Source of the DNA: Candidatus Binatia bacterium
GTDB lineage: Bacteria > Desulfobacterota_B > Binatia > UBA9968 > JAJDTQ01
NCBI GenBank assembly: GCA_022827045.1
Contig: JAJDTQ010000070.1
Location: forward strand, 1-21,246
DNA: 21,246 bases
Direction of reading: 5' to 3'
The position numbers and the translations under genes are program-made. Positions 3,401 to 21,116 of this stretch are shown here, in pieces; positions within the stretch are counted from its first letter, which is position 1; each line of letters starts with the position of its first letter. The notes below the pieces were generated by a model that was not told the origin of the DNA, searched no databases, and worked only from the letters and a program-made list of their open reading frames with translations.

Positions 3401-6318
3401 TCCGCATCCCGTCCGGCGCTCCGTTCCGGAGATTTCAGATCGTCCTCCCAGTCGAGTTCATGCAACGGTTGATGCCCGCCCCCGTGCCCCGAGTCCGGCT
3501 GAAGCTCAGGTTCGTACTCGCGTTCCATGCGATCCGTGTGACCCGCGTCCCGCTCTTCGGGCGGTTCGAGGCCCATCTCTGCCTCGTGCGCGGCCTCCCT
3601 GGCGACTCCATCCAGCGCCGAGATCCGCTCTCCGGTCGCTCGCTCCAGCTGTTCGGAGAGCTTCCTGGCATCGTCGGTGACCAGCTCGGCATGGTCTCGA
3701 GCCCGGCTGATGGCCACGTAGAAGGCTCTCTGGTTGGTCAGATTCGGATTGCCGGCGGGCATTGCAGCCACGATATGGTCCACCGTCCTGCCCTGAAAAG
3801 AGTGAACCGTGGCCGCCCAAGCCCTGTCCATGTGCCGGAGTTGCGGATCGTCTTCGTCCAGTCCGGCTTCCTTTCCGTTCTCCAGCCGGAACCGGACTCC
3901 CTCCTTTTCGATGGACTCCACCATCGCCGCCTCCCCGTTCACGAGTTCCGAGCCCGGATCGTTGCGCGTCCACCGGACCCGGTCGCCCGCCCGAAGCTCC
4001 ATCTCCTCGCTCCTGTAGACCTCGACGCCGCCCTTGGCGGCGGCAATTTGGTACGGCCGCCAGGCCACGAGATCTCCTCCACCGCCGGCCAGCCATAACG
4101 TGTTGCGGTCGTAGTCGACGCGCACCACATCCCGCTCGTCTCCCTTCTCCACCCCGAGCGTCTTGTACTGCCGGTTGAAAATCACCGTGTCTCCCGCCGA
4201 GTAGTTGGAGGCCCGGGCCATCTCCGCCCGGGTCAGGCCCGTCGACACGAGCTTCTTGCCTTGGCGGGCGGGTCCTGAAACCACCCCGTCTGCGACCAGA
4301 CTCTCGCGGATTCTCGTGTTGATCTCGTCCCGTAGCGCCCTCGTGGGTGCAATCACTCCTGCCCTCGTGCGTTGTTCGGGAGACAGTTTCAGCCACCGTT
4401 CGGCGGCTTCGAGGCCGAGTTGTTCCCTATCCACCTGCACAACCTGATCGCCGAGTTTGTCGAATGCGGTCTTCACCTCGCCGGCCAAGCCCGCCCGCAC
4501 CGCTTCCTTGAGCTCCATGTCGCGCTGGCGGAGGATCTCGTCCATTACCGCGGTCTGCATCCCCGCGCGCCTGAGTTGCTCGAAGGGCTTGCCCGCTTCC
4601 ACCGCTCCGAGCTGCCTCTCGTCTCCGACCAGCACCACCCGTGGGACCCGGAGCGTGGTTGCGGCCCTGAGGAGACCCCTCATCTGCTCGCTCGATGCGA
4701 GCGAGCTCTCGTCCACCACCAGGACCGTCTTCGAGAACGAGGCGCGCAACTGGCGAAGACCCTTCACCGTGCCCCGGCCTTCTATGACTCCCGCATTGCG
4801 GGCGAGGAACCGTTGCAGAGTCTCCGACCCGATCCCGGATTCCCGCTCAAGGGTGCGCGCGGCCGAGGCCGAAGGCGCAAGCCCCACCGTCCGGTAGTCC
4901 CGGCTCTCCGCCAGCGTCCGCAGGCGCTTCAGCATCGTCGTCTTGCCCGTTCCCGCATAGCCCTGCACTCCCACCACACGGTCTTTCGATGCCAGCACCA
5001 TCTTGACCGCTTCCTTCTGGCCCTCGTTGAGACGCCCTCCGTGGAGTTTGGTCTCCGCGATCCAGCCCCGCATGATGGGTTTCCCCGATCCCTGGCCGGC
5101 GTGCATCAGCGCGATGGCCTCGGACTCCCTCGCCATTGCCGCGTCCGTGGTCCAGTGCCTGCCGTGGTCGAGACCCCTGGCGGCGTGCAGTCCGCCCTCC
5201 CGTTCGAGCTCCGAGACGGCGCGCTCCGCCGCCTCCACCCTGACCGCGCCCGGCTCCCGGGAGAGCGCGGCCGCCAGAAGATCCCCGTGGCCGAACACCG
5301 ACTGGCGTTCGGATAGGTGCTCCACCGCCCAGCTTGCCGCCTCCGCGGCGGGCTGTCCCCGGTCCGTGAACAGGTCCGGTATGGGGAGTTCCCGCTCGGC
5401 CCGCATTGCCTTCGCCCGCACCGTGTCTGGCAAAAACCCCAGATCCGCCGCTTGGCGCTCCCAGGACCGGCGCAGCTCGCCCCGTTCCACGTCGCGCTTC
5501 CCAGCCCGCGTCATCAGCGTGGCCCGGGCCGCCATGTGCGGGTTGTCTCCCGTCCTGCCCAAGCCATGCTCCCTCATTGCAGCCTCTATCTCCGACCGCC
5601 GGGTGGAAAACTCCTCGATCACTTCCCGCGATACCCCCGCGATCTCGAACCGCCCGTCCGGGTGCGTCTTCTCTATCCCGTACCCGAGATCCTGAAGCCC
5701 TTGCGCCAGCTCCGCCCGGTAGATGGCTCCGATCGTCATCTTGCCCCTGAAGAGCCCGTCATCCACCATCGTGCGCCACTTCTGATCCTCGCCCTGCACC
5801 ATGTTGGCGATGACGGCGTGAGTGTGGAGTTGAGGGTCGAGGTTGCGGGAGGTGTCGTGGCGGAAGGTCGCGGCCACCATCTTCTGGCCGCCGGCCCGGA
5901 CCATTGCGCCCGTCGCCCGATCCTGCATCCGGGTCTCGACGGCGTTCTTCTCGATCCACGCCAGCGTTCGGCCGACCGCCCTGTCGTGGGCGTCCACGAT
6001 CCGCTCGTCGCCGCCCACCATCGCCATGAGCGACACCGACTTGGGCGCGGACAGCGTCACGTCCCGGCCCGGACGGTGCTGGATGTTGCCGTCGAGATCC
6101 TTGCGGCCAAGCTGGCGTCCGCCGGGAACCTTACCTTCAAGGACGGCCCGGAACGCATCGGAGTCGACCGGGCCTGAGAGCCCCAGTTCCTCCGCGCCCC
6201 GGCCCGCCCAGGCGCTCGCTTCCTTGTGCGCCGGGTCGTCCCTTGAGTAATACCCATCCCGCTCGAAGTAGCTCGCCCCTTGCGACGGAGAGGCGATCTT
6301 GCCGATGGAGGCTACCAT
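3265..6318 (-). CDS. MobF-family conjugative relaxase-helicase (TrwC/TraI-like)
   Basis: This 1017-residue protein would nick plasmid or element DNA at an origin of transfer, stay attached to the 5' end through a tyrosine, and unwind the strand for transfer. The N-terminal relaxase domain (about 1-300) has candidate catalytic tyrosines at Y17 and Y23/Y24 (ASYFERDGYYSR), GRGAEELGLSG, and the metal-binding triad HDTSRNLDPQLHTH with H154, H165 and H167. The helicase part has a Walker A motif GYAGTGKT at 453-460, Walker B VVDES at 534-538, and late motifs TVHSFQGRTVDH and FYVAISRARDHAEL. The last roughly 90 residues are acidic and low in complexity. The ATG at 6318 follows GGGAGG with an eight-base gap. 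Length and domain order match full-length family members, and I see no frameshift. The coupling ATPase and small DNA-binding accessory protein that usually neighbour trwC are absent from this window, so transfer would need genes elsewhere. Confidence 0.93.
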   Translation of the reverse strand: MVASIGKIASPSQGASYFERDGYYSRDDPAHKEASAWAGRGAEELGLSGPVDSDAFRAVLEGKVPGGRQLGRKDLDGNIQHRPGRDVTLSAPKSVSLMAMVGGDERIVDAHDRAVGRTLAWIEKNAVETRMQDRATGAMVRAGGQKMVAATFRHDTSRNLDPQLHTHAVIANMVQGEDQKWRTMVDDGLFRGKMTIGAIYRAELAQGLQDLGYGIEKTHPDGRFEIAGVSREVIEEFSTRRSEIEAAMREHGLGRTGDNPHMAARATLMTRAGKRDVERGELRRSWERQAADLGFLPDTVRAKAMRAERELPIPDLFTDRGQPAAEAASWAVEHLSERQSVFGHGDLLAAALSREPGAVRVEAAERAVSELEREGGLHAARGLDHGRHWTTDAAMARESEAIALMHAGQGSGKPIMRGWIAETKLHGGRLNEGQKEAVKMVLASKDRVVGVQGYAGTGKTTMLKRLRTLAESRDYRTVGLAPSASAARTLERESGIGSETLQRFLARNAGVIEGRGTVKGLRQLRASFSKTVLVVDESSLASSEQMRGLLRAATTLRVPRVVLVGDERQLGAVEAGKPFEQLRRAGMQTAVMDEILRQRDMELKEAVRAGLAGEVKTAFDKLGDQVVQVDREQLGLEAAERWLKLSPEQRTRAGVIAPTRALRDEINTRIRESLVADGVVSGPARQGKKLVSTGLTRAEMARASNYSAGDTVIFNRQYKTLGVEKGDERDVVRVDYDRNTLWLAGGGGDLVAWRPYQIAAAKGGVEVYRSEEMELRAGDRVRWTRNDPGSELVNGEAAMVESIEKEGVRFRLENGKEAGLDEDDPQLRHMDRAWAATVHSFQGRTVDHIVAAMPAGNPNLTNQRAFYVAISRARDHAELVTDDARKLSEQLERATGERISALDGVAREAAHEAEMGLEPPEERDAGHTDRMEREYEPELQPDSGHGGGHQPLHELDWEDDLKSPERSAGRDADGLESWDTDRETEPEEDRSREPEREPVQETTLDPEEKLLDMDLEM

Positions 6319-8136: not shown

Positions 8137-9090
8137 TTAGCGACTGACGCCGAACACGCCAAGCCAGCCGCCACGCCTGAATACGCCGCCTGCTTCGTCC
8201 TGTTGCGGACCGTAGAAGCGTCCGCGCACGGAGCCGTCGACGGCGTCGAAGGATCCTGCGTGGAGCGGGATGTCGGCCCAGTGAAGGGAGCCGGTGTCCG
8301 GGCTGGAGAGCACCAAGTCTATTTCAAACTGCTGGAGATCGACTGTGAGCCGGGCGACGCCGCTGGCGCGCGTTCCAGCCGCGTTCCTGGCGATCATGTC
8401 GCCGAACCAGGTCGCGTCGTCGGTCGCCGGGTTTGCGGCTTGCCAGTCGCCGAAGGAGACGGCGCTGCCGGCGTCGGTGAACCCGAAGACGCTGGAGGGT
8501 AGGAGCATGCCGTCGACGGCGTTGACGTCTCCCCTCAGGATCGTCTCGGCGAGTTGCGGGACGTCGACGGGGCCGAGGGCGACCCAGGCCAGGGTGTCGC
8601 CGCCTTCGAGCCGCTCTCCCTTGCGTCGGTAGGCGGGCCGGACGAACTCGCCTCGATGGATGCCGCGGCGCTCGGCCCGGGCCCGGTCCTCGTGGCCGCG
8701 ATAGTCATCCGAGTACTCGGCGAGCGCCCAGCCGTTGAGGACCATCCAGGCGTTGAGGTCTTGGCCGCCCGACGAACAAACGCCGATCACGCGTCCGTAT
8801 CGGTCGGTGGATCCTCCCGTGCAGGAAAGGCCGTCGACGTGGCGGGCGAGAGCGTCAATCGCCGCCTCGCCGCAATCCCAGGTGTATCCCCACGCGCGGC
8901 AGGTCTGGTAGGACTCGGGGGCGTCGATGCCGTGAAGGCGGTAGCGAGTGCCGTCGACGTCGATGGTGTCGGCGTCGATGATCCGGACCTCCCGGGGCGG
9001 ATCGGGAGGCTCAAGACGCGGGTCGGGGGATTGGCTGCCGCCGCATCCGGCGAGCAGCAGGATCGCGATGACGGTGGCGAGGCGGATCAT
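8137..9090 (-). CDS. Lipoprotein: thermonuclease-like domain fused to TbpB-like barrel domain
   Basis: This 317-residue protein starts at the ATG at 9090, which follows AAGGAAGG; the longer open frame to 9333 lacks such support. A lipoprotein signal peptide ends at the lipobox LLAGC (C16). Residues 34-155 form a staphylococcal-nuclease domain with every key residue: D41 (IIDADTID), R51, D56 and E59 (RLHGIDAPE) and R100 (DRYGR), followed by LNAWMVLNGWALAEYSDDY. Four cysteines (C64, C73, C90, C105) could form disulfides outside the cytoplasm. Residues about 185-317 look like the small beta-barrel domain of transferrin-binding-protein-B-like proteins, ending GRFYGPQQDEAGGVFRRGGWLGVFG. The enzyme should hydrolyse DNA or RNA at the cell envelope, with calcium as the usual cofactor. 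The barrel may bind a ligand or help surface display. Nuclease domain confidence is high; the barrel call is by end-motif only. Confidence 0.85.
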   Translation of the reverse strand: MIRLATVIAILLLAGCGGSQSPDPRLEPPDPPREVRIIDADTIDVDGTRYRLHGIDAPESYQTCRAWGYTWDCGEAAIDALARHVDGLSCTGGSTDRYGRVIGVCSSGGQDLNAWMVLNGWALAEYSDDYRGHEDRARAERRGIHRGEFVRPAYRRKGERLEGGDTLAWVALGPVDVPQLAETILRGDVNAVDGMLLPSSVFGFTDAGSAVSFGDWQAANPATDDATWFGDMIARNAAGTRASGVARLTVDLQQFEIDLVLSSPDTGSLHWADIPLHAGSFDAVDGSVRGRFYGPQQDEAGGVFRRGGWLGVFGVSR

Positions 9091-9260
9091 GCCGAACCTT
9101 CCTTTATTGAACCGGCCGAGAGGTCTCTCCCCTCGTCGTCCTCGATTATGGCACCTTCGACGAACGGCGTCTTGCCCTGGACGAGTGCGCGCCGGTATGT
9201 TCCATGATTCAAAGCTAAACGCGGCCGGTGCCGAAAATCTGACAATTTCGGCGCTCTCAT
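9087..9260 (-). CDS. Possible 57-residue ORF overlapping the nuclease lipoprotein start
   Basis: An ATG at 9260 opens a 57-residue frame starting MRAPKLSDFRHR and ending DDEGRDLSAGSIKEGSA. Its TGA overlaps the ATG of the nuclease lipoprotein as ATGA, an arrangement typical of translational coupling. Composition is protein-like, with an acidic C-terminal half. I recognise no family. The upstream ribosome-binding site is weak (CCGAGG directly before the ATG). A further minus-strand frame ends in the same ATGA manner at 9257. This may instead be the tail of a decayed gene. Confidence 0.3.
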   Translation of the reverse strand: MRAPKLSDFRHRPRLALNHGTYRRALVQGKTPFVEGAIIEDDEGRDLSAGSIKEGSA

Positions 9261-9881
9261 CCTCGGTCAGCTCCCGGCAGCCAGGTGCGTTCCTCCACCG
9301 AGCGAATCCTGTCCGTTTGGGACCACAAGTCATGGTTTTCGTTCAGATTGCTCGAAAGCCTGCCCGCTCCGGGTCCGGTGATCACCCAGGGCTGTCCGGT
9401 ATCCGCGGCAGGGTGGCAAGCACCGTCGTAGCCACCAGCGAGGGCTTCTGCACCATGCGTGTGCCACTTACAGCAAGGCCTCAACCGTCACCGGTTGCGG
9501 CCCTTTCCCAAGGATTCGGCGGTTTTCCCTGGGGCGCGCATGCGCACGCCGGGCCAGGATCGCACGGGGCGGCCGGTTCCTGCTATGGGATGACTCCGAA
9601 GCCGTTGGCGTCGCGGTTTGGGTTGCCGGAGACACGGACGCCTTCAGGGGATGCAGCCGAAAACCTCGCCCGTTGGCCCTGCCTGGATGCGTCACCTCTT
9701 GCAGTCGGAACAGGATTCGACGAAGTTGTGGCACGGGCCAAGCAAACGCAAAGGCAAGGAACAACGACGAATAACGTCCTGCTTGTTTCATGGCATCGCA
9801 AACCGTCTCTCTGTGGTCATAGTCTGTCCCGACGATTCGCTCAATGAAGTTGCCGAAGAGGTGAGCGTGTACGGACATCGA
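9261..9881. other. Long intergenic region without recognised gene
   Basis: About 620 bases separate the divergent lipoprotein genes. Frames of 70-200 codons run through on both strands, but none has a start with a ribosome-binding site, a motif or consistent composition. The minus-strand frame 9257-9484 ends with protein-like residues (DLWSQTDRIRSVEERTWLPG) and may be the end of something lost. Promoters for both flanking genes should be here; I cannot place them. Confidence 0.4.
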
Positions 9882-10199
9882 ATGAAGGCGGTGTTGCTGC
9901 TGATTTGTTGCACGTTGTCGCTGGCGGGGTGCTACGTCACCCTGAAGGCGAAGAAACCGGACGGAAGCCGGCCAAGCAGCCAAATGATGGCGGAGTGCAG
10001 CCGTCAAGCGGTCCGGGCCAATCAAGAAGCAGGAGACTATGTAAACGAGGGGTTCCATGAACCAATGCGCTCGCCGAGTGCGCGGAAACGGCGGGCGGTA
10101 GTCAGACGGCAAACGAAGCGGTGGTACGACTTGGTCGCATTATGCCTGACAGGGAAGGGCTACGCGGTGGATGTGCGCTGCTGGGACTGTGGCGAGTAG
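9882..10199 (+). CDS. Small lipoprotein, function unknown
   Basis: This 105-residue protein begins MKAVLLLICCTLSLAGC, a clear lipoprotein signal with the lipobox cysteine at residue 17. The mature part is short, basic and charged, with a RKRRAVVRRQTKRWYDLV stretch and two cysteines near the end (VRCWDCGE). No domain is recognisable. The open frame extends upstream to 9618, but only the ATG at 9882 puts the signal peptide at the N-terminus. A GTG at 9861 is an alternative in-frame start. It stands alone on the plus strand, divergent from the nuclease lipoprotein. It would be anchored in a membrane, probably facing the periplasm. Confidence 0.6.
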   Translation: MKAVLLLICCTLSLAGCYVTLKAKKPDGSRPSSQMMAECSRQAVRANQEAGDYVNEGFHEPMRSPSARKRRAVVRRQTKRWYDLVALCLTGKGYAVDVRCWDCGE

Positions 10200-10431
10200 G
10201 GCTTCCTCGGCTAGCACTCTGCTTATGACTCCCTGACATCTACGGTCATTCACATCCCGGTAGGGTCGCAGACAAGGACGGGGAGATCTACCATCGGGGT
10301 GGGACGTGACGCTGTCGGCAGAGATCGAAACCCTGCGACAGCAGACCGGCACCGGCGCCACGATCAACGATCTCGGCAGATGATCCCACAGACACTACGC
10401 CAGCGGATCGGGAAACGGTCGCGGCCAGCTC
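10200..10431. other. Region upstream of truncated transhydrogenase
   Basis: The missing FAD-binding end of the transhydrogenase would be expected here, but no frame shows the dinucleotide-binding GxGxxG motif. One plus-strand frame ending at a TGA at 10381-10383 reads WDVTLSAEIETLRQQTGTG and INDLGR, which looks like the C-terminal end of some other protein. I cannot name it. The break suggests that foreign DNA replaced the start of the gene. Confidence 0.35.
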
Positions 10432-11688
10432 GTGACATCCCCGCGTGCAACCCGCTATGGGGAGGCTTCGGTCGACTCGATGGCGGATCGGTCCCAGCCG
10501 GACATGCCAGCGACCCGGGTCCGGAAAGTGGTGGAGCGGCGGATCGCCGCCATGGAAGACCAGCTCCAGGTCTACCACGACCGGATCGATATCTTCCGGG
10601 GCTACCACGCTACCCTGGACAGTCCCAACTCGGTGCATGCGTGGGTGCTCAGGAACCCCATGGAGTCCATCAACCTGAAAGCGGAGAAGATCATCATCGC
10701 CGCCGGATCGAGGCCGCGCTTCACGCCGGACATCCCGGTGGACAACGAGGTCATCTTCGATTCTGACTCCGTGTTCACGCTCGAGCTCAAGCGCAAGTCC
10801 CTGCCCGAGTCGATCATCGTCATCGGCGCTGGGGTCATCGGTGCGGAGTATGGCTCGGCATTCGCGGTTCTGGGGTGCAAGGTGTCGCTGATCCAGCGGG
10901 ACCGGACCTTCCTCACCTTCGCCGAGAGCCCGCTCGTCGACATGCTCATCCGGCGCATGGAGGACTACGGCGTGGAGTTCGTCTGGGGCAACTGGTACGA
11001 CAAGATCGAGCGGATGGCCGGATCGGACGAGAGGGCGCGGGTCACCCTCGCCGACGGCCGGGTGCTGGAGGCGGACGTGGTGATCGTGGCCAGCGGCCGC
11101 GAGGTGGCCACCAGGGTGCTGGGGCTCGAGGACGTGGGCGTCGCTTTCAATCAGTACGGCCTGATCGAGGTGAACGAGCTGTTCCAGACCTCGATTCCCA
11201 ACATATACGCCGCCGGCGACGTGGTGGGTTTCCCGGCGCTGGCCTCCACCAGCAGCGAGCAGGGCCGCATGGCCGCCAACTACGCACTGGGACGCCGGGC
11301 GGGCGGGCGCAGGACGCTGTTCCCCATGTGCGTCTACACCATCCCCGAGATCGCCATGGTGGGCTACACGCAGCAGGAACTGGAAGACAAGGGCATACCC
11401 TACGCCAAGGGGGTGGCCACCTACGACGAGGTCACCAAGGCCGGCATCATCGGCGATCCGCACGGAATGTTGACGCTCTTGTTCGAGCCCAACGGCTGGC
11501 ACCTCCTGGGCGTTCACATCATCGGCGACCAGGCCTGCGAGCTGATCCACATCGGCCAGGCGGTGTTGAGCTACAACGGGACCATCGATTACTTCATCGA
11601 CAACGTTTTCAACTTTCCCACCATGGGAGAAGCCTACAAGATGGCGGCTCGGAACGGGGTGAAGCAACTCACGCATTCGGAGGAGTGA
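10432..11688 (+). CDS. sthA: SthA-like soluble pyridine nucleotide transhydrogenase, N-terminally truncated
   Basis: The 418-residue frame matches the central and C-terminal parts of SthA, the FAD enzyme that moves reducing equivalents between NADPH and NAD+. Family-like sequence begins near residue 28 (TRVRKVVERRIAAMEDQL). It continues with AAGSRPRF at 90-97, the NAD-binding GAGVIGAEYG at 132-141, the second FAD contact IYAAGDVVG at 259-266, and the dimerisation domain (CVYTIPEIAMVGYT to FNFPTMGEAYKMAARNG). SthA is usually about 465 residues; the first 80-90, with the Rossmann GxGxxG that binds the FAD ADP moiety, are missing, and the preceding DNA does not encode them. The GTG start at 10432 and the first 27 residues are uncertain. 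Without the FAD half-domain, catalysis is unlikely. The rest is cleanly open, so the truncation may be recent. Confidence 0.85.
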   Translation: MTSPRATRYGEASVDSMADRSQPDMPATRVRKVVERRIAAMEDQLQVYHDRIDIFRGYHATLDSPNSVHAWVLRNPMESINLKAEKIIIAAGSRPRFTPDIPVDNEVIFDSDSVFTLELKRKSLPESIIVIGAGVIGAEYGSAFAVLGCKVSLIQRDRTFLTFAESPLVDMLIRRMEDYGVEFVWGNWYDKIERMAGSDERARVTLADGRVLEADVVIVASGREVATRVLGLEDVGVAFNQYGLIEVNELFQTSIPNIYAAGDVVGFPALASTSSEQGRMAANYALGRRAGGRRTLFPMCVYTIPEIAMVGYTQQELEDKGIPYAKGVATYDEVTKAGIIGDPHGMLTLLFEPNGWHLLGVHIIGDQACELIHIGQAVLSYNGTIDYFIDNVFNFPTMGEAYKMAARNGVKQLTHSEE

Positions 11689-12247
11689 GGCAGGTCCGGA
11701 CCGGGTCGCCGCCAAGACGGACTGCCGGGGCTGCACGCTCCCTCTTCAGCCGATTCCTCGACCAGAACCGGGCGAACGTTACGGGCGGACGCTGTGTACA
11801 AGGACGGAGATTCTTCAACGTCCGGTATGCGGCCTGGACTGAGAGACGGGTGATGCGGTTCGGCATTCATCCATAATGATGGTGAACGTTCGCAGGTCAT
11901 GCGTCAAAGGCAAAGCCGTCGCGGCGTTTGAGCGAGAGGACCGGCCCACGATCCATGAGCGTATGGCGAGGAGTGTTTCACACTTCGCACAGGGCGATGT
12001 CGAAGCGGCTATCGGGTACGATGGTTCCGGTCGGTGATCACCGCGTCGATGCGAATGCTTCCGCACATGTTACCGCTCCACACGGAGGGCTGACCGAAGC
12101 CGCGGCTTGCAAGCAGCACGAGGCCGCTGCATGGTGAAGGGAACATGATGGCAACGAGGAATCATGCTTCTATGAACGAGGCCACGTCATACAGCGTGGT
12201 CAGTCGTCGCCGTCGGCCGCGTCCACGTCCCCGCAGCGGTGGGCGCC
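11689..12247. other. Intergenic region mostly made of repeated flank
   Basis: The first 170 bases after the transhydrogenase show nothing I recognise. From 11861 on the region is copy A of the repeat that also precedes the second MmeI-like copy. Short open frames in the two copies do not correspond, so I read it as non-coding. It should hold the promoter of the MmeI-like gene. Confidence 0.5.
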
Positions 12248-12538
12248 ATGACGCCGGGGGAGTTCATCGCCAAGTGGCGGGTGGTCGAACTCAAGGAGCG
12301 CTCGGCATCGCAGTCGCACTTCAACGACCTCTGCGCCTTGGTGGGCGAGCCCACGCCGACGGACGCGGACCCTTCGGGCGAAGGGTACTGCTTCGAGCGC
12401 GGCGCGCGGAAGGACAGCGGCGGGGACGGATGGGCCGACGTGTGGAAGCGCGGCTGCTTCGCGTGGGAATACAAGGGGCGGCGCGCGGACCTCGACGCGG
12501 CGTTCAACCAGCTGCAGCAGTACGCGTTCGCGCTGGAG
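11861..12538 (+). repeat. Direct repeat copy A (upstream region plus MmeI-like N-terminus)
   Basis: This aligns collinearly with 20381-21116. Conserved landmarks are TTCATCC--AATGATGGTGAACGT, GCGGCGTTTGAGCG, ACACTTCGCACAG-GCGATGTCGA, GGAGGGCTGACCG, CTGCATGGTGAAGGGAACATGATGGCAACGAGG-ATCATGCTTC, and then the first 100 codons of the gene. Copy A lacks about 60 bases present in copy B near 20470-20550. Identity looks high but well short of perfect. Confidence 0.85.
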
Positions 12539-13729
12539 AACCCGCCGCTGCTGATCGTCTCGGACATGGCGCGGTTCCGCATCCGCACCAACTGGACCAA
12601 CAGCGTGAGCGAGACGCACGAGTTCACGCTGGAGGACCTGGCGGACGGGGCGGCTCGGGACAAGTCCGACCTTACGGCCCGGCGCGGTGGAGCCGGAATC
12701 GACCTGACCGTGGCAAAACGTATCCCGGCGAACATGGAGGTTGCCTTCATGGGCGACACCAAGAGCGGGCCGTTCGACGTTCCCGGTGATCTCGCTCGGG
12801 AATGGCTGCGCCTTCCGGGGAACCCGAACGGGCGGCCCAACGCCGATGTGCTCAAGCCCTGGGTGAACGGCATGGACTTGACCCGCCGTCCGGCGGGCAA
12901 GTGGATCGTGGATTTCAGCTGGGAGATGTCGGAAGCGGACGCGGCGCTCTATGAGGCATCCTTCCGGCACGTGAAAGAACATGTCTGGCCCATGCGACAG
13001 CGGAACCGCCGAGAGTCGTATCGCCTCAATTGGTGGCGGCATGTCGAACCGCGACAGGGCATGTGGAAGGCGCTTGACGGGCTATCGCGCTACATCGTCA
13101 CGCCGACCGTCGCCAAGCATCGGCTGTTCGACTGGCTGGAGGCGGGCATCTGCCCGGACCACCAGCTCATCGCCATCGCTCGCGACGACGATGTGACCTT
13201 CGGCATCCTGCACAGCCGGTTTCACGAGGTATGGTCACTCAGGCTCGGGACTTGGCTCGGCAAGGGCAACGATCCGCGCTACACGCCGACCAGCACCTTC
13301 GAGACCTTCCCCTTCCCGGACGGGCTCTCGCCCGACATCCCCGCCGCCGATTATGCGGACGGTCCCCATGCCATCGCCGACGCTGTGCGGCGCTTGGTCG
13401 GACTACGTGACCGCTGGCTCAACCCGCCCGAATGGGTGGAGTGGGTGGAGGGGCCGGTGCTAGGTTATCGAAAGCGCCCGGTAGCCCGGGACGAGGAGGC
13501 GGCGAAGAAGCTCACGGCCCGCACGCTGACGAACCTCTACAACGCCCGGCCGCAATGGCTCACTGATGCTCACGCGACACTTGATGCCGCTGTTGCAGGG
13601 GCCTACGGGTGGGATGCGAGGATCTCCGAGGAGGACGCTGTAGCCGAGCTGCTGTCACACAATCTCACCGTAGACCGAACGAAGGCGTCTGGGAACAAGG
13701 GGAGTAAGACCGTGAACACGAAAGGATAG
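12248..13729 (+). CDS. MmeI-like restriction protein lacking its methyltransferase domain
   Basis: Type IIL MmeI-like enzymes are single proteins of about 900-1000 residues combining nuclease, helical spacer, DNA methyltransferase, target-recognition and C-terminal domains. This frame has 493 residues from the ATG at 12248 (MTPGEF; a GTG at 12239 is also in frame). Counting from that GTG, residues 1-142 match the N-terminal domain, including the nuclease motif D67-x9-E77-x-K79 (ADVWKRGCFAWEYKG). Residues 143-496 match the target-recognition and C-terminal domains (GAGIDLTVAKRIPANM, VLKPWVNGMDLTRRPAGKW, WSLRLGTWLGKGNDPRYTP, FPFPDGL, LTNLYNARPQWL). The junction ARDK/SDLTARRGG (about 12665) skips the spacer and the methyltransferase, so the SAM motif (DPACGSG type) and NPPF are absent. 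The frame is otherwise open and conserved. Related enzymes cut only with SAM, so this form may be inactive, or act as a DNA-binding or modified nuclease protein. The last 20 residues differ from the usual end. Confidence 0.85.
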   Translation: MTPGEFIAKWRVVELKERSASQSHFNDLCALVGEPTPTDADPSGEGYCFERGARKDSGGDGWADVWKRGCFAWEYKGRRADLDAAFNQLQQYAFALENPPLLIVSDMARFRIRTNWTNSVSETHEFTLEDLADGAARDKSDLTARRGGAGIDLTVAKRIPANMEVAFMGDTKSGPFDVPGDLAREWLRLPGNPNGRPNADVLKPWVNGMDLTRRPAGKWIVDFSWEMSEADAALYEASFRHVKEHVWPMRQRNRRESYRLNWWRHVEPRQGMWKALDGLSRYIVTPTVAKHRLFDWLEAGICPDHQLIAIARDDDVTFGILHSRFHEVWSLRLGTWLGKGNDPRYTPTSTFETFPFPDGLSPDIPAADYADGPHAIADAVRRLVGLRDRWLNPPEWVEWVEGPVLGYRKRPVARDEEAAKKLTARTLTNLYNARPQWLTDAHATLDAAVAGAYGWDARISEEDAVAELLSHNLTVDRTKASGNKGSKTVNTKG

Positions 13730-13736
13730 CGACAAT

Positions 13737-13796
13737 ATGCCAACCTTCAACGCGATCGATGTAGAAACGGCGAACGCCGACGGAGTTCGCTGCTAA
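13737..13796 (+). pseudogene. Remnant of a DnaQ-type 3'-5' exonuclease, first 19 codons
   Basis: Seven bases after the MmeI-like stop an ATG opens MPTFNAIDVETANADGVRC and then TAA. FNAIDVETANAD is the hallmark start of DEDDh exonucleases of the DNA polymerase III epsilon type, where the D and E of DVE bind metal. The usual continuation (a SICQIG-like stretch) is missing and no further exonuclease motifs are found downstream. The gene was therefore cut off right after its first motif, probably by the event that brought in the TIR gene. Confidence 0.55.
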
Positions 13797-13989
13797 GCGA
13801 TGGCAGCGATCTCCAACTCATTTGCAAGACATTGAGAGAGCTGGATGCCGTGTCTGGGCCCCAAGGTCATACGCCGCGAACCGAAGCGTTTGAAGCGAAA
13901 ACATGCGAGCTAACCAGTCGCTCCAGCCGACGGCTGCGCGGCTTGTCCGCGGCTGAGCGTGGTCGTTCGGCAGATGAGGGAACCCGCCC

Positions 13990-14982
13990 ATGTGGGACGT
14001 TTTCATATCGCACGCAAGCGAAGACAAGGCAGCAGTTGCGTCGCCTCTGGCCGACGAACTCCGGAACTATTGTCAGCGCGTCTGGCTCGACAGGTGGGTA
14101 CTGTCCCCTGGGGACTCGCTGAGGCGCAAGATCGATGAAGGAATATCAAAGTCGCGGCTCGGCGTCGTAGTCCTGAGTCATTCGTTCTTCGCGAAAGCGT
14201 GGCCCCAAGCCGAGCTTGATGCACTCTACACATTGGCCGTAAGCGGCAAGCGCTCGGTGGTTCCGGTGTGGCACGAGATCACTGCTGATGAGGTGGCGGG
14301 CTACTCTCCGCTTCTCGCTGCCTTCCTCGCGTTGCCGACCAGCAAGGGAATCGAGACGATCGCGGAAGAGCTCGCCCGAAAGCTCGGCTGCAAGGGACGC
14401 CCCTTGACGCTGGAAGTCGGTGCGCGCCCGCTTGCTGTCGTTCCTGGTGTGGATGCATTGGCGGAGGCTATCCGTCAAAGCGAAGACATTCCAGGGAGCT
14501 ACACGAAGAGGCGCGTCAGGGTGTCTTTTCCTGAGCGCGTGACTTCGCACGAAGAGGAAATCCGGCGGGGCGTGAGGCTCTTGATAACGCTGGAATCCCT
14601 CACGTTCCCAGTTCGGACAAGCGGCCTTCTCGCAACGACCGTGGACTCGTTCATTCGGATCTACGACGAGTCGGTGTCGAGAGTGACTGGGACACGGTTG
14701 GACCTCTGGCGGAGGGAGGATACTGGCTGGAATACCGGAATCAACGTCACGCCAGAGGAGGCGTCGCATATATGTGGCATCCTCGGTGTCGACAGCATCA
14801 GGGCCCTTCGCGGCGGCTTCCCAAACGATATGCTCGATCTAGGTACTCTGGTCCTGGCGACGAAGGCCGTCCCTCGGATCCTCTTCGAGTTCTTCCGGAG
14901 GGAACAGCGTGACCGAACGGATTACACAGATCGTATTCATGAGTTGTTGGCGCTCCCTACGTGGACGTTCGGGATAGGGTAG
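13990..14982 (+). CDS. TIR-domain protein with unrecognised C-terminal domain
   Basis: This 330-residue protein begins with a TIR domain (about 1-135): MWDVFISHASEDK, the BB-loop region VWLDRWVLSPGDSLRRKIDEGI, VVVLSHSFFAKAWPQAELDAL and the HEITADEV stretch. E75 in WPQAELDAL sits where bacterial TIR NADases have their catalytic glutamate, so NAD+ cleavage or production of an NAD-derived signal is plausible. The remaining 190 residues contain RRVRVSFPERVTSHEEEIRRGV and later GINVTPEEASHICGILGVDSIRALRGGFP; I do not recognise this part, which would be the sensor or partner-binding half. There is no membrane segment. The ATG at 13990 is preceded by GAGGGA at good spacing. It lies in a plus-strand block between the MmeI-like gene and a secreted protease gene, a setting that fits antiviral defence, but function is inferred from the TIR family only. 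Confidence 0.85.
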   Translation: MWDVFISHASEDKAAVASPLADELRNYCQRVWLDRWVLSPGDSLRRKIDEGISKSRLGVVVLSHSFFAKAWPQAELDALYTLAVSGKRSVVPVWHEITADEVAGYSPLLAAFLALPTSKGIETIAEELARKLGCKGRPLTLEVGARPLAVVPGVDALAEAIRQSEDIPGSYTKRRVRVSFPERVTSHEEEIRRGVRLLITLESLTFPVRTSGLLATTVDSFIRIYDESVSRVTGTRLDLWRREDTGWNTGINVTPEEASHICGILGVDSIRALRGGFPNDMLDLGTLVLATKAVPRILFEFFRREQRDRTDYTDRIHELLALPTWTFGIG

Positions 14983-15340
14983 GCCATCGACACTACGAGG
15001 TCATGAGGGACGTACCCTGAAGGCGGAGAAGGATTCTCGGAATGCGGCCGCATGATCTTTCGCAAGGAATGAAATCCTGTCAGCCGTGATTCAAGCGAGT
15101 CTTGGAGTGTCGAAGCCGGTAGTGTGAGAGTGGCGGGCGCGCTTTGCGGGGGCGGCGTGGACGGTTTGGCAGATCGGGGTTCAACTCTCGTCAGGAACAC
15201 CTCCATCGCCTTTTGACCTTCATCGGCTCTTGCAAGGCCGACGCACGTCGCGTTCAAGGGCCTTTCGCCGACAACCCCTTGGCCGCGTGACAAGTCAACC
15301 TACTTTGGAAACACTTGCGGGGTTTGATATAGGGCCAACC
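14983..15340. other. Intergenic region before the protease gene
   Basis: These 358 bases show no gene I would defend. A minus-strand frame of 118 codons crosses it (to 15293), but its proline-rich, motif-free product and its overlap with the TIR gene end argue against coding. The right edge holds a likely promoter for the protease gene. Confidence 0.45.
15305..15333 (+). promoter_or_regulatory. Candidate sigma70-like promoter of the protease gene
   Basis: TTGGAA at 15305-15310 and TATAGG at 15328-15333 are separated by 17 bases, each matching four of six consensus positions. Transcription would begin at about the ATG at 15341, giving a nearly leaderless message. The alternative reading is that AGGG at 15331-15334 is a ribosome-binding site and the promoter is further upstream. 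Confidence 0.3.
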
Positions 15341-18300
15341 ATGAGGCTTGCACCTATCGTTATCGTTGTTCTCCTCGCGGGCCTTTTTGGGACCTCGTCC
15401 GTAGTCTGGAGCGGGTCGGCGAAGGAGGTGTTCCAGTCGGTGGCGCCCTCGGTGGTGGTCGTGCTGGGTTTGGGCGAAGACGGTGCCGCCGTGAGTCAGG
15501 GTAGCGGCGTAGTGGTGGGCAGGAAGGAAGTCGTAACAAATTGCCATGTAGTCGAAAAGGCTGCCGGCATCGCTGTGCGCCAAGCGTCGCGGCATGCTGG
15601 TGGACCCACGTGGCGGATGACGGCTTCGTTGCTTTTGCAGGAATCCAAGCGGGACCTGTGCCTGTTGTACGTGGACGAGTTGTCGAAACCGCCAGCCGCG
15701 CCCGCCGTTCGCCTCGGTTTCGCCAAGAAACTGTCGGTGGGTGAGGAAGTATACGCGGTGGGAGCACCCAACGGACTGGTGCTATCCCTTTCCCGTGGAA
15801 TAGTATCGCAACTCCGCAGGGTCTTCGGCAAACGGCGTGCACCGCTGGTGCAGACGGATGCGGCCATATCTCCGGGTTCCTCGGGCGGCGGCCTTTTCAA
15901 CAGCCGCAGTGAGCTCGTCGGAATCACGACATTCAAGTGGAAAGGAGAGAACCTCAATTTCGCCTTGCCGGTCGAATGGGTGCGTGAACTGACACAACTG
16001 GGCCAACGGAGACTCACCGCGGAGCAGCGGCGTTCGTCATGTTTGGAGGTTCCAGACTTCGATTGCCTCATCGAACTCGCTCGGAACATCGACAATAGCG
16101 TTTCTGCATGGCTCGAAATCGTTGCCGTGCAACTGGAAGTCGGAGACAAACGAGCGGCAAGGCAGCATCTGGACACTTTGTTTGCGACCGCGAATACCAT
16201 GGACAAGGGTGGTGACCGTGATCGGTTGCTGCGTAACATCGCCGAATTGCAGGTGCAGGCGGGGGCCTTCACCGACGCACTCGCGACAACGCGAAGCATT
16301 GACTCAATCCATCATAGAATACGGACATGGTCTTGGGTGGGGCCGGAGATCGCCAACGCCCAGTTGGAGTCAGGGGACAGACAGGCGGCGAGGAGGACGA
16401 GACGGATAGTCAGAAATGTGCTGGTGAAATTACTCAAGGAAATGCAGAGCCAGGGGATTGAGCCCGATATATTGCCAGGGTTGTTGGTTGCCATCGCCAT
16501 GGGGCAGGTGGAAGCCGGAGACAAGCAAGCGGCGAGACAGACCCTGACTCTTGCCTTCAAGATATTCAAGACCACGAAATCGAAGTGGCCGTGGAGCAAC
16601 GTAATCAACCAGGCCCACAGTGACGGAAGACCGTCATGGAGCCTGGACAAAAGGGGAAAGCTCGACAGTGCGTTGAAGGATATCGTCCCACTCCTGGTGG
16701 ATGCGGGAGACATCGTCGTTGCGTACCACACCGCGCAAGCCGTCTACGACACGCAATCTGGAGAATTTGGAAGTGTATTGAAGTCCATGGCGAGGGCGGC
16801 GGTCGAAGCGGATATCACCGACCTATTCGAGGCACTGAGGACAGACCAATTCCACGGGTTCGTTTTGTTTGTGTGGGAGGTGACTGTGGCTCAACTCGAA
16901 GCGGGGAATATTGGTGCCCTACTCAAGACAGCAAGGACGGCGAAGGATGCGGGTTATGGCCGGTGGTTTTTCGGTCCTGCCGGTTTTGCATGGGGCGATC
17001 TTGCCAGATCACAGGTTGCAGCAGTTGAAATCGTCGCTTCATTCAGAACCGCGAAGGACGACTCGCGGGGTTGGGCCAGTGATCTTGACCATGCCTTGCG
17101 GCAGGTTGTCGCGACGCAAGTCAACCTGGGGGATATTGCCGCTGCACTCACCACGGTCGAGGGCATAGATGCGGCCGGAGACCGCGCAGTGGCGTATGCA
17201 CACATCGCCAAGGCACAGGCGAAATCCGGCGACCGGGAAGTGGCGAGGAAAACCTTTGGGGCCGCGTTCGGGGCAGCGCAGGGGATAGAGAACAGGTTCA
17301 ACCGCGTTAAGGCGTTGAGGGACATCCTCGGGGCACATGTGGAAATTGGGGATGTGGCTGGTGCGCGTAAGGTCGCGGGACACATCGTGGCGGAGAAGGT
17401 CGCGGGACACATCGTGGCGGAGAATACCGAGCCATTCGATTCAGATGTCCTCTCGGTATGGGTGTCGGAGCGAGTTGCTACCGCGCAAGCAAAGTCCGGT
17501 GACAGAGAATCGGCGAAGGAGACACTTGCGGCGGCACTCAAGACGGCGCAGGGCATGAAGGACGCGCCCAAACGTGATGCGGCGTTGATGGTCATCGTCC
17601 AGTCACAGTTGGGAGTTGGGGACCTGGCTGGTGCACGCAACACATCGACGAGCTTCCGGTCGGATTCTCCGCTTGTAAGGGCACTGACGTCGATCGCCAA
17701 GGCGGAAGCGAAGTCAGGCGACAGCGAATTGGCGAGAGAGACCCTTGCCGCGGCACTCAAGACGGCGCGGGGCATGAAGGACGTGCCCGAACGTGATGCG
17801 GTATTGATGACCATCGTCCATTCACAATTGGAAGTGGGGGACGTGGCTGGCGCGGGCGACGCATCGACGAGCTTCCGGTCGGATTCTTTGCTTGTAGAGG
17901 CACTGACGTCGATTGCCTTGGCGGAAGCGAAGTCCGGGCACAAGCAAGCGGCTAGACAAGACTTTGCCGCTGCGTTGGAGAGAGTACAGGGCATGGAGGA
18001 TGTCTCCGAGCGTGACTCGATATTGTGGGTACTCGCCGAGGCACAGGGACGCGCGGGAGATGTCGTTGGTGCACTGAACAGCCTATTCCGTATCCAGAAC
18101 GTTGAAGGTTATCAAGTCGCAACGATCGTCACTCAGGCCAAAGCCAATGCCCGGGAAATTGTTGTTGCGCTAGAGTTCGTCGAGAGGCTGGACAAAGGTC
18201 CCAAGCGCGACGAGGCATTGAGCACAATCATCCGGGCATTGTTGGACGTTGGGCACATCGGTGGCGCCCTCAAGGCTGCGGAATACATGGACGATGGCCA

Positions 18301-18934
18301 ATTGCGTCACAATGCGCTGGGAGAGATCATCCGGGCGAAAGTAGGGATGGGGGATTTCACCGGTGCACTCGAAACGGCGCAGCGCATGTCCGATGAGCCC
18401 GTCAGTTTTTTCGATATGGGCCGTAGTGGTTGGGTGTCTTTGATATTGCAACGTTTCGCTGCCCGGCAGGCGAAAGGTGGGGAATTCGCGGTTGCGATGA
18501 AGACGGTGATGAGCATCAAGAAAGCATACTCGCGTTTCTCTGCACTACTGCGTGTCGCAGTATACTTGAAAGGATATCCGGAACGTTTCCCGATCAAGGA
18601 GAAGGGGAACATGGCGGAGTCATTGGAGTTGGAGCGCTCGGATTGGATTCTCGTTCAGCGCGGTCTCGCCTCGTTCAACATCAATGTAGGTCCGGTAGAT
18701 GGGATTTTCGGACCGCGGACTCGCAAGGCGATACGTTCCTGGCAAGCGAAGAATGGCCTGGAGGAGACGGGTCATCTGACGCAGGAACAAGCGGGCGCGC
18801 TGATCGATGTGGCAAAGCGGCAGCAACGCGCCGGGGACGAATACCTGTTGCCGTTGCCGAAGGTGTTCGAGGAATTCTGCGCCGAGAATCCATGCTTCAG
18901 GATCTGCACTCCGATTGGCAACTGCCTCCCCTAA
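15341..18934 (+). CDS. Secreted trypsin-like protease with helical repeats and peptidoglycan-binding domain
   Basis: From the ATG at 15341 (the longer frame to 15230 would bury the signal) this is a 1197-residue protein. Residues 1-26 are a hydrophobic signal or anchor. Residues about 28-235 form a chymotrypsin-fold serine protease of the DegP/HtrA kind with the full triad: H69 (VVTNCHVVE), D105 (KRDLCLLYV) and S181 (ISPGSSGGGLF). Residues about 236-1095 are TPR-like helical repeats with a recurring GDxxxARxTL pattern and units near 70 residues. Residues about 1100-1160 are a peptidoglycan-binding domain (VGPVDGIFGPRTRKAIRSWQ), followed by a cysteine-rich end (FCAENPCFRICTPIGNCLP). The protein should sit in the periplasm or envelope, attached to the wall, with the repeats binding partner proteins. 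No PDZ domain is seen. It follows the TIR gene in the same direction after 358 bases, so a joint role is possible but unproven. Confidence 0.85.
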   Translation: MRLAPIVIVVLLAGLFGTSSVVWSGSAKEVFQSVAPSVVVVLGLGEDGAAVSQGSGVVVGRKEVVTNCHVVEKAAGIAVRQASRHAGGPTWRMTASLLLQESKRDLCLLYVDELSKPPAAPAVRLGFAKKLSVGEEVYAVGAPNGLVLSLSRGIVSQLRRVFGKRRAPLVQTDAAISPGSSGGGLFNSRSELVGITTFKWKGENLNFALPVEWVRELTQLGQRRLTAEQRRSSCLEVPDFDCLIELARNIDNSVSAWLEIVAVQLEVGDKRAARQHLDTLFATANTMDKGGDRDRLLRNIAELQVQAGAFTDALATTRSIDSIHHRIRTWSWVGPEIANAQLESGDRQAARRTRRIVRNVLVKLLKEMQSQGIEPDILPGLLVAIAMGQVEAGDKQAARQTLTLAFKIFKTTKSKWPWSNVINQAHSDGRPSWSLDKRGKLDSALKDIVPLLVDAGDIVVAYHTAQAVYDTQSGEFGSVLKSMARAAVEADITDLFEALRTDQFHGFVLFVWEVTVAQLEAGNIGALLKTARTAKDAGYGRWFFGPAGFAWGDLARSQVAAVEIVASFRTAKDDSRGWASDLDHALRQVVATQVNLGDIAAALTTVEGIDAAGDRAVAYAHIAKAQAKSGDREVARKTFGAAFGAAQGIENRFNRVKALRDILGAHVEIGDVAGARKVAGHIVAEKVAGHIVAENTEPFDSDVLSVWVSERVATAQAKSGDRESAKETLAAALKTAQGMKDAPKRDAALMVIVQSQLGVGDLAGARNTSTSFRSDSPLVRALTSIAKAEAKSGDSELARETLAAALKTARGMKDVPERDAVLMTIVHSQLEVGDVAGAGDASTSFRSDSLLVEALTSIALAEAKSGHKQAARQDFAAALERVQGMEDVSERDSILWVLAEAQGRAGDVVGALNSLFRIQNVEGYQVATIVTQAKANAREIVVALEFVERLDKGPKRDEALSTIIRALLDVGHIGGALKAAEYMDDGQLRHNALGEIIRAKVGMGDFTGALETAQRMSDEPVSFFDMGRSGWVSLILQRFAARQAKGGEFAVAMKTVMSIKKAYSRFSALLRVAVYLKGYPERFPIKEKGNMAESLELERSDWILVQRGLASFNINVGPVDGIFGPRTRKAIRSWQAKNGLEETGHLTQEQAGALIDVAKRQQRAGDEYLLPLPKVFEEFCAENPCFRICTPIGNCLP
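17369..17422 (+). repeat. Exact 27-bp tandem duplication inside the protease gene
   Basis: The 27-base unit encoding KVAGHIVAE occurs twice back to back (17369-17395, 17396-17422) with no mismatch. It adds nine residues (677-685 and 686-694) without breaking the frame. An exact copy within otherwise diverged repeats points to a recent slippage event. Confidence 0.9.
17489..17926 (+). repeat. 219-bp tandem repeat inside the protease gene, two copies
   Basis: Copies 17489-17707 and 17708-17926 each encode 73 residues starting AKSGD and containing ETLAAALKTA-GMKD and STSFRSDS-LV-ALTSIA. They are far more alike than the other helical repeats of this protein and have the same length, so this is a fairly recent in-frame duplication of one repeat unit. 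Confidence 0.9.
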
Positions 18935-19423
18935 CCCCAAAGCCACTCCTTGTTTCATCCGACGGTGCGCCTTGCACCAAGCCATGGGACCGTCGTCCAG
19001 CGTGGCAATCCGCGGCCAACCGTTCGAAGAACCTCCGCTCGTCGCCATGACTTGAGACTGGACCAGCCTCCGGCGCGGGTGCGGCGGATTCCAACAGGGC
19101 TTCTATGCGCTCTGCCACGCGTTGAGCGGGCTCCCGGAGTTGCTCGACGGTCCAGTTGGCGGCATAGCCCTCGGTGATGTCGTCGTCGTGGGCGTGGTTG
19201 ACGAGCCGTTTGGTCAACGGGAGCGGCAGCATCAGGTCGCGCTCGGCCACGGTGATGAAGGCGTTGCGTAGCCCGTGGAACCAGAAACGGGTTCCGCCGG
19301 CCTTGCTGATCCGGGGTGATGGCGACCGACGCCCTTCAGGTGTCCTTCTGCGCTCGTGGGGGACGGGAACACCCAGTCCTCCTCCCGAGCTCCGCCGCTC
19401 TCCTCCCGGCGGCGCTTGACATC
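18897..19423 (-). pseudogene. Tyrosine integrase, C-terminal fragment with frameshift
   Basis: The minus strand encodes the catalytic end of a phage-type tyrosine recombinase. The upstream part reads RREESGGAREEDWVFPSPTS and AEGHLKGVG, then loses frame at the G-run 19313-19316 (one base short). The next frame reads ISKAGGTRFWFHGLRNAFIT with the H-x-x-R box (HGLR), then LTKRLVNHA, and DITEGYAANWT with the likely nucleophile tyrosine at 19164-19166, ending near RIEALLES. The family's N-terminal SAM-like and DNA-binding domains are missing: the TetR gene region begins where the integrase should continue. The frame stays open to a stop at 18897, overlapping the protease 3' end, beyond the normal C-terminus. 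Such integrases move genomic islands, so this is a relic of an island end. Confidence 0.8.
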
Positions 19424-19454
19424 GTCACCAACCGTGCGGCATTTACCCTTGCTG

Positions 19455-20090
19455 ATGGAAAGAACTTCCCTGCAGCGTCCATGGGCAGGAAGTCTCTCAC
19501 GCGCGCCGCGCCGGGCTCACATACTTGATGTCGTCATCAAGGTGCTGGCCGAACGCGGCTACCGCGGCGCCACCATGCTCGAAGTGGCACGACGTTCTTC
19601 GGCGTCCAAGGAAACGCTGTATGCGTGGTTCGGCAACAAGCCCAGGCTCTTCGAGGCCGTCATCCGGCGATACGCGGAACGGTTTCGACTGGCGGTGAAC
19701 GAACATCTCGACGGCGGCGCTTCGGTCGAGGCTGTCTTGACGGGGTTCGGCCGGGCAATGGCGGCCCACCTTCTCGGCGACTACGCGGTGGCGGTCTACC
19801 AGGCCGCCGTTTCCGAGGCGTCCTCAACCCCGGCGCTGGCGGCCAGCCTGTCCAGGTTGTGCCGCGACCCGATTCACGGGAACTTGGTCCGGTATCTGGA
19901 GCAGTGCGGTGCGCGAGGCCTCCTGAAGATCGAGGATGCGAACGAGGCCGCTGACACCTTCGTCGGGCTGCTCCTCGGAGATGCCCAGCCCCGGCGGTTG
20001 CTGGGGGTTCTGGATTCACCTTCCGAGAGCGACATCGAGGTCCGCGCGAAGCGGGCGGCGGGACTGTTTCTTCGCCTGTACGACGCTTAA
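19455..20090 (+). CDS. TetR/AcrR-family transcriptional regulator
   Basis: From the ATG at 19455 the protein has 211 residues. Residues 21-68 are a typical TetR DNA-binding domain: AHILDVVIKVLAERGYRGATMLEVARRSSASKETLYAWFGNKPRLFEAV in outline, with the recognition helix in SASKETLYAWFG at about 49-60. The C-terminal part (about 80-208) is all-helical and resembles the AefR-like group of ligand-binding domains (MAAHLLGDYAVAVYQAAVSEA). It would repress transcription until a small molecule binds. The start is uncertain: there is no good ribosome-binding site, and the frame is open back to 19356, through the integrase remnant. No obvious target operon (efflux pump, for instance) adjoins it here. 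TTGACA at 19416-19421 could be a -35 box, but no convincing -10 follows. Confidence 0.82.
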   Translation: MERTSLQRPWAGSLSRAPRRAHILDVVIKVLAERGYRGATMLEVARRSSASKETLYAWFGNKPRLFEAVIRRYAERFRLAVNEHLDGGASVEAVLTGFGRAMAAHLLGDYAVAVYQAAVSEASSTPALAASLSRLCRDPIHGNLVRYLEQCGARGLLKIEDANEAADTFVGLLLGDAQPRRLLGVLDSPSESDIEVRAKRAAGLFLRLYDA

Positions 20091-20825
20091 CGAACCCTAT
20101 TGGGGCGGTTGTCAGGCGTTCCGCCCGGAATGGCCTTGCGTCGCTTTCTGCGTTGCAGATTGGAGGCCGCCAAGTCCTTGAAATCACGGGGATGTGTTTG
20201 GATCGTACACGCCCGTAACACAGGAGCGTCGCAAAATGACACCGTCTTTTCCATGGCGTCCGCGCGTCGGAGAAACTCGGAGCGCGCAAGGGAGCGCACC
20301 AAGTCGCAGACAGGGCGCGACAGGCACCACGGTGCGGCAGGTGTGAAATCCTTAACGGGCGCCAGCCCGTCGGAACCGACCCGGCGTTCATCCGCAATGA
20401 TGGTGAACGTCCGGAGGGTCATGCAGCGACGGCAAAGCCACCGCGGCGTTTGAGCGGACCGATTGATCCGTAATACATGAGCGTTCCGCATTACCTTCCG
20501 GTCGCCGGACACAACATGGCCGCCGGGTGCGAAGCAAACGAGCGAGGGAGTCTTGCACACTTCGCACAGCACGATGTCGATGCGGCTGCCGGGACCGATG
20601 CATCGGCTGGCGATCACCGCGTCGACGCCGAATGCTTCCGGACATGTTGCCTTTCCACGCGGAGGGCTGACCGGAGCCGCTGCTTGCAGCCGGCGTGAGC
20701 CCGCTGCATGGTGAAGGGAACATGATGGCAACGAGGAGTCATGCTTCGATGAACGAGGCCACCTCATCCAGCGCGATCTTGCGTCGCCGCCGGTCGGCGT
20801 CCACGTCCCCGCAATGGTGGGCTTG
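20091..20825. other. Long intergenic region made of repeats
   Basis: About 735 bases between the TetR gene and the second MmeI-like start. Almost all of it is repeat: 20128-20390 pairs with the inverted copy at 310-570, and 20381-20825 pairs with 11861-12247. A minus-strand frame covers the whole area (20087-21175), but it also runs antisense through the MmeI-like coding region, and the matching frame is not kept in copy A, so I do not call it a gene. Confidence 0.5.
20128..20390 (+). repeat. Diverged inverted repeat, right copy
   Basis: This is the partner of 310-570 in opposite orientation. It begins GAATGGCC, contains TTGGAGGCCGCCAAGTCC and TTGAAATCACGGGGATG, and ends in GGAACCGACCCGGCG, with scattered substitutions and indels relative to the left copy. 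It directly precedes the direct repeat copy B. Confidence 0.65.
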
Positions 20826-21116
20826 ATGACGCCGGGAGAGTTCATCGCGAAGTGGCGCGTGGTCGAGCTCAAGGAACGCTCGGCGTCGCAGTCGCACTTC
20901 AACGACCTGTGCGCGTTGGTAGGCGAGCCGACGCCGACGGACGCCGACCCCTCGGGCGAATGGTACTGCTTCGAGCGCGGCGCGCGGAAGGACAGTGGCG
21001 GCGACGGCTGGGCCGACGTATGGAAGCGCGGCTGCTTCGCATGGGAGTACAAGGGGCGGCGCGCGGACCTGGACGCCGCGTTCAACCAGTTGCGGCAGTA
21101 CGCGTTCGCTCTTGAG
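20381..21116 (+). repeat. Direct repeat copy B (upstream region plus MmeI-like N-terminus)
   Basis: This is the partner of 11861-12538. Similarity covers about 440 bases upstream of the MmeI-like start and about 290 coding bases. It stops abruptly at the terminal transposase copy. Confidence 0.85.

Follow-up and report, generated by a model that had tools for sequence, protein, structure and literature searches.

A methyltransferase-less MmeI-like gene in a Candidatus Binatia contig, probably a recent deletion allele of a type IIL restriction-modification gene

We identified in a contig of a Candidatus Binatia bacterium an MmeI-like open reading frame (ORF) in which an N-terminal nuclease domain runs directly into a target recognition domain (TRD) and a C-terminal domain. 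The whole contig, 21,246 bases, was analysed and is called the window in this text. The ORF is most probably a deletion allele: a type IIL MmeI-like restriction-modification (R-M) gene, about 955 aa at full length, that has recently lost its function. The deletion, its size, its frame and a simple match on both sides of the join are apparent from the comparison with relatives.

Domain organization and extent of the deletion

The gene and its parts are located as follows.

11861..12238, + strand: upstream flank of the MmeI-like gene, shared with relatives and repeated before a second copy
12248..13729, + strand: MmeI-like ORF with internal deletion, 493 aa
12248..12664, + strand: N-terminal PD-(D/E)xK endonuclease domain (MmeI_N), residues 1-139 (Pfam; identity to the relative L003)
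12437..12475, + strand: nuclease motif D64-x9-E74-Y-K76, read directly in the sequence
12664..12665, + strand: deletion junction (comparison with 8 relatives)
12665..13729, + strand: TRD and C-terminal domain (Pfam, PADLOC, relatives)

In the ORF list the frame starts at GTG 12239 and, as the original prediction had stated for both sides of the join, it is open through 13729. The likely start is the ATG at 12248, which gives 493 aa; the window's own protein, recovered in our homologue search as P0001, begins at the same Met. The nuclease domain is recognized by Pfam MmeI_N with 44.6 bits (cut-off 27). The TRD is evident from the homology of the right part, with Pfam MmeI_TRD scoring 25.4 bits, just below the cut-off of 27, and the C-terminal helical domain is present in that the alignment reaches L003 residue 951, with Pfam MmeI_C at 23 bits below the same cut-off. 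The PADLOC type IIG model covers residues 152-476 (E 1.3e-121). The predicted layout of nuclease, TRD and C-terminal domain is thus borne out by the Pfam and PADLOC matches, and the D-x9-ExK motif is indeed kept: D64-x9-E74-Y-K76 is the counterpart of D70...E80-M81-K82 in MmeI, as given in the available sections of PMC4833311. The sequence matches MmeI in PDB 5hr4 with E 0.00026. A predicted structure reached a mean pLDDT of 50.6 from 35 sequences, to be read against only 57.4 from 36 sequences for the intact L003 control.

L003, a 954-aa protein from a Candidatus Binatia MAG, is the closest intact relative among the best 80 of 325 confirmed loci. Over residues 1-139 the window protein shares 97.8% aa identity with it. 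L003 residues 140-617 (478 codons, 1434 bp) are then absent at 12664/12665 with nothing inserted, and the window protein resumes at the start of the TRD. An in-frame loss of the whole methyltransferase core had been predicted from the sequence, and the estimates of about 450 residues and a junction near 12665 came close. The right part shares 74.6% aa identity with L003 in a tblastn alignment that starts slightly left of the join. Measured against other relatives, the gap is 1434 bp (L006, L033) or 1422 bp (L008, L004, L012, L009), and it is 1435 bp against the frameshifted L020.

Methyltransferase motifs I (L003 residue 379) and IV (491) both fall inside the missing stretch, and the protein consequently lacks them. 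Likewise, the helical spacer of type IIL enzymes is gone with L003 residues 140-617, and PF20465 is not listed for P0001. According to the accessible part of PMC4833311, MmeI is organized into nuclease (1-155), spacer (156-300), methyltransferase (301-620), TRD (621-825) and C-terminal bundle (826-919). Because the left edge of the deletion lies near MmeI residue 145 (extrapolated by a few residues from the 5hr4 alignment), the deletion would have taken spacer and methyltransferase, and perhaps also ten residues at the end of the nuclease domain. The order of nuclease motif, TRD and C-terminal domain in the window protein is thus that of the MmeI/type IIL family (PDB 5hr4), but the helical spacer and methyltransferase motifs of MmeI are both absent, and the lack of these motifs rules out methylation of DNA by the remnant. 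The motifs had not simply been overlooked elsewhere: apart from the alignment, a tblastn search of the window with the missing segment gave a best E of only 0.32, and a six-frame search of the window for NPP[FYW] or P[AS]CGSG gave no match. A partner methyltransferase within the window was also considered and rejected, as the tblastn and six-frame motif searches found none.

The junction and the surrounding contig

The join was compared with 8 relatives, which stand in for the unseen parents. Judged from these, it contains zero inserted bases and zero microhomology: beyond the join the left parent diverges at once, and other bases precede the right parent in 8/8 relatives. Identity to L020 is 91% both in the bin before the gap and in the bin after it, and 69–88% further right; this equal match on two sides is what a simple deletion would leave. 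Identity to L003 is 93–96% along the N-domain and 69–90% along the TRD and C-terminal domain. No chimera is needed to explain this fall, because the intact pair L003-L006 displays the same contrast (88–93%, then 74–92%). GC3 of the window gene goes from 0.95 in the N-domain to 0.79 in the TRD, and a drop of at least 0.16 was found in 8 of the 53 genes taken as intact, with L003 itself dropping by 0.15.

It seems very unlikely that the join is an assembly or library artefact uniting two stretches of one intact gene or of two paralogues. The protein is known from this contig alone, and a second, highly similar gene start 8.6 kb away would offer material for such an error; however, k-mer assemblers need a shared word, and since the parents have no bases in common at the join, as far as the 8 relatives tell, there is no word at which the assembly could have crossed over. 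The in-frame position of the join and the equal match of both adjoining sides to one relative (L020) also speak against an artefact, although a library chimera keeps a small probability. The contrast between a conserved N-domain and a variable TRD is typical of intact relatives as well, and the fall in GC3 occurs among genes taken as intact; both weaken the idea of a genomic chimera, in which non-homologous recombination would have placed the N-domain of one paralogue before the TRD of another. The two copies within the window would suit that idea, as would the nearest matches among the best 80 of 325 loci (L003 for the N-domain with 97.8% aa identity, L006 for the right side with 83.6% in its best long nucleotide match), but we regard it as the least probable explanation of all. 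The paralogue chimera that the original prediction had worried about is therefore made unlikely by a junction without shared bases and by the two-sided L020 match, and a deletion within one gene is the preferred reading.

Further features of the window concern the second copy and possible mobile elements.

3265-6318, - strand: TrwC-type relaxase-helicase; L006 and L001 have similar DNA (74%) near their MmeI-like genes
20826..21116, + strand: start of a second MmeI_N gene, interrupted after 97 residues that are identical to L003
21109..21246, - strand: 138-bp repeat, a perfect inverted copy of window 2-139, overlapping the gene homology by 8 bases

The second copy with its flank (20341-21116) is cut off at the 138-bp repeat. 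This repeat is probably the end of an insertion sequence, and the two contig ends probably mark breaks at two copies of one such element; by eye, one reading frame of the repeat resembles the C-terminus of a transposase. Of the two gene copies, one is gutted and the other interrupted, the remainder of the latter being outside the contig or lost. L003, L006 (both intact) and L020 (frameshifted) share the upstream flank of the window gene and keep residues 140-617 of L003 or the equivalent; in whole or in part, the flank 11861-12238 is shared with L003, L020, L006, L076, L012 and L004. It is found twice in the window (11861-12238 and 20341-20825) and also precedes relatives whose MAGs carry the labels of different classes. 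A stretch farther upstream of the second copy, 20128-20348, has a diverged inverted copy at 358-570 on the minus strand.

The TrwC-like DNA near the genes of L006 and L001 hints that MmeI-like genes travel on mobile elements. The terminal repeat had no match in plasmids and window 9000-21246 had no near match there, and among the protein matches on plasmids none of 95 records reached 80% query coverage in one place. Viral contigs yielded three distant relatives with 43–49% identity over the TRD side. Many of the MAGs matched here presumably come from sponges, to go by their names. An enrichment of R-M systems in sponge symbionts has been reported (PMC5649159, available in part).

Among the neighbouring genes, the ORF of an SthA-like transhydrogenase (10432-11688, + strand) aligns with its family model from position 87 of 464 onwards only; by eye, no N-terminal part could be recognized in the forward frames back to 10081, and the gene is possibly truncated. 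Just downstream of the MmeI-like remnant, a TIR-domain protein (13990-14982, + strand) resembles ThsB and retron-TIR effectors over roughly its first 130 residues, while its C-terminal part is unmatched. It is followed by an ORF of 1234 aa (15230-18934, + strand) with a trypsin-like and a peptidoglycan-binding domain; at 17483-18015 it contains a 219-bp tandem repeat, a length divisible by three. Searches of the window gave 0 Rfam hits at the gathering threshold and 0 tRNAs.

Deletions, decay and selection among related genes

A protein search gave 6996 hits, of which the best 120 were listed, restricted to proteins of 0.55–1.75 times the query length. This length rule shuts out full-length genes and favours proteins that keep both ends, so that the number of deletions does not measure their frequency; out-of-frame deletions would not appear as a single protein at all. 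We called an internal deletion well supported if it spanned at least 60 residues and was flanked on both sides by at least 50 aligned residues with at least 40% identity. One such deletion was present in 21 of the 120 listed homologues, the window's own included. A looser count gave 31 of 120, from which ten (P0010, P0033, P0038, P0044, P0050, P0052, P0056, P0092, P0093, P0108) were dropped for a short or poor flank. Merging P0083, P0089, P0112 and P0120 leaves 18 distinct events with scattered edges, and 11 of these remove both methyltransferase motifs. The four merged proteins are 97–99% identical and lack reference residues 364-730, one methyltransferase-less join on several contigs.

The original prediction had proposed a search for the same short architecture. 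It is found among the 120 listed proteins in P0013, P0025 and P0027 (391–440 aa), where, as in the window protein, a single in-frame deletion joins the start of the nuclease domain to the TRD; the edges all differ from those in the window, however, with residues 159-675, 87-647 and 125-689 missing, respectively. The window's join was found in no other protein among the 120 listed of 6996 hits. A second search with residues 101-200, which span the join, gave 1231 hits; among the best 120, only the window's own protein contained it, and the other 119 were all at least 586 aa long. A conserved methyltransferase-less MmeI subfamily with this join was not seen among the matches listed. Titles and abstract openings in the literature, with subscription papers mostly outside reach, likewise revealed no MmeI-like protein without a methyltransferase.

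The best 80 of the 325 confirmed genome loci were examined without the length rule. They comprise 53 intact genes, 14 interrupted by the end of a contig, and 13 that are broken or have a missing or different N-terminus (L014, L018, L020, L023, L027, L029, L032, L037, L050, L057, L058, L062, L071). Decay in MmeI-like genes is therefore common but not the rule, with 53 of 66 assessable relatives intact. One of the 80, L050, has a large internal deletion that joins the N-terminal part to the TRD, and its N-terminal part also has a stop codon; L057 has a different N-terminal sequence. L029, L037 and L058 are not edge-cut: they share their truncated start with L018 and L023. The form shared by these five loci (L018 from 7434, L023 from 4345, L029 from 130, L037 from 128, L058 from 896) begins at reference residue 425-428, is preceded by closely similar DNA, and lacks nuclease, spacer and motif I. 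Its MAGs are labelled Gammaproteobacteria and Gemmatimonadetes, and this C-terminal half seems to have spread to the five loci. In the 20 genomes searched for the N-domain, each had 1–3 matches at E 1e-8.

We next consider selection on the remnant. Of 190 columns in which at least 95% of the intact genes agree, the window gene departs from 9; equal or higher numbers occur in 2 of 52 intact genes. For this count, L027 was dropped from the 53 genes first taken as intact by ORF length (84/190 departures); a first version of the count gave 7/167, with 4 of 53 intact genes at or above. L026, left out of these genes because of an ORF without a closed 5' end, is included among the 53 intact genes in the tally of the 80 loci. 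The departures are raised, yet within the range of intact genes. For the TRD and C-terminal domain, dN/dS of the window gene against relatives was 0.15–0.27 (8 pairs), compared with 0.12–0.25 among the same 8 relatives (28 pairs), one of them being L020, which is frameshifted upstream of this region. Private changes in the N-domain (3 synonymous, 1 non-synonymous) are too few to tell. Relaxed selection is thus not detectable; the data fit a deletion too recent to leave a mark and do not separate a dead gene from a retained one.

Activity of the remnant

About 1434 bp would have been lost in one recent in-frame event, between ends that lack homology; this took out helical spacer and methyltransferase domain and left the nuclease fused to the TRD. 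The product, if made, would very probably neither methylate its site nor cut there, because one wall of the DNA-binding cleft is built by the methyltransferase, which also binds the SAM on which cleavage depends in a related enzyme. As described in the available sections of PMC4833311, MmeI grips its DNA with the TRD on one side and the methyltransferase domain on the other, while the spacer likely sets the position of the nuclease. BpuSI, a type IIG enzyme, no longer cleaves once a single SAM-binding residue is mutated (PMC3817140, accessible in part). By analogy, specific cutting by the remnant appears unlikely. If specific cutting was lost along with protection, as the absence of spacer and methyltransferase suggests, there would be no lethality paradox, and in light of the MmeI and BpuSI evidence the prediction that such a protein should be lethal if it still cuts was overstated. 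We infer that all activity was lost, that this happened recently and that the remnant is harmless; the gutted gene would survive since it is harmless and young.

The recurrence of other deletions with different edges and the cutting of the second window copy at a repeat argue for a dead gene. On the other side, no stop interrupts the 493 codons, dN/dS resembles that among relatives, and the join lies near domain borders, as it might in a useful fusion. A retained and re-purposed nuclease-TRD fusion, which would bind DNA or serve as nuclease or subunit alongside a further system, of type II or type I, that supplies methylation, is nevertheless unlikely. The intact D-x9-ExK motif, the open frame and the lack of clear relaxation would agree with it, and HVO_A0006 of Haloferax volcanii provides a precedent: according to the accessible part of PMC4389544, it is, like the window protein, a methyltransferase-less type IIG piece that keeps PD-(D/E)xK, it adjoins transposition genes, and its deletion altered m6A methylation. 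Unlike the window protein, it is an N-terminal piece only, without a TRD, and an effect of its removal on methylation has been shown (PMC4389544). The join shared by P0083, P0089, P0112 and P0120 indicates that methyltransferase-less alleles can persist a while, and the N-terminally truncated form occurs with one shared start at five loci. However, the window's join region matches none but the window's own protein among the best 120 of 1231 hits, the other distinct deletions have different edges, and the TRD would be left without the wall against which it packs DNA. The number of deletions does not affect these odds, because the argument rests on differing edges. Highly improbable is a live methyltransferase-free type IIL protein in which the TRD reads the site, the nuclease nicks or blocks, and an intact paralogue of like specificity protects in trans, or in which the nuclease is lent to another R-M complex, as proposed for HVO_A0006. 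If true, an active fusion would challenge the need of the methylase half for cutting and tolerance in single-chain R-M enzymes. Among the three fates first proposed (dead, a new role or a partner methyltransferase), a dead gene is best supported, by inference, and no partner is needed to explain its survival.

As a decaying allele, the window gene would be one of several: independent, clean and mostly different deletions have arisen within one R-M family. They may form a mildly useful natural deletion series with which to ask what parts a type IIL enzyme can lose and what parts it can keep.
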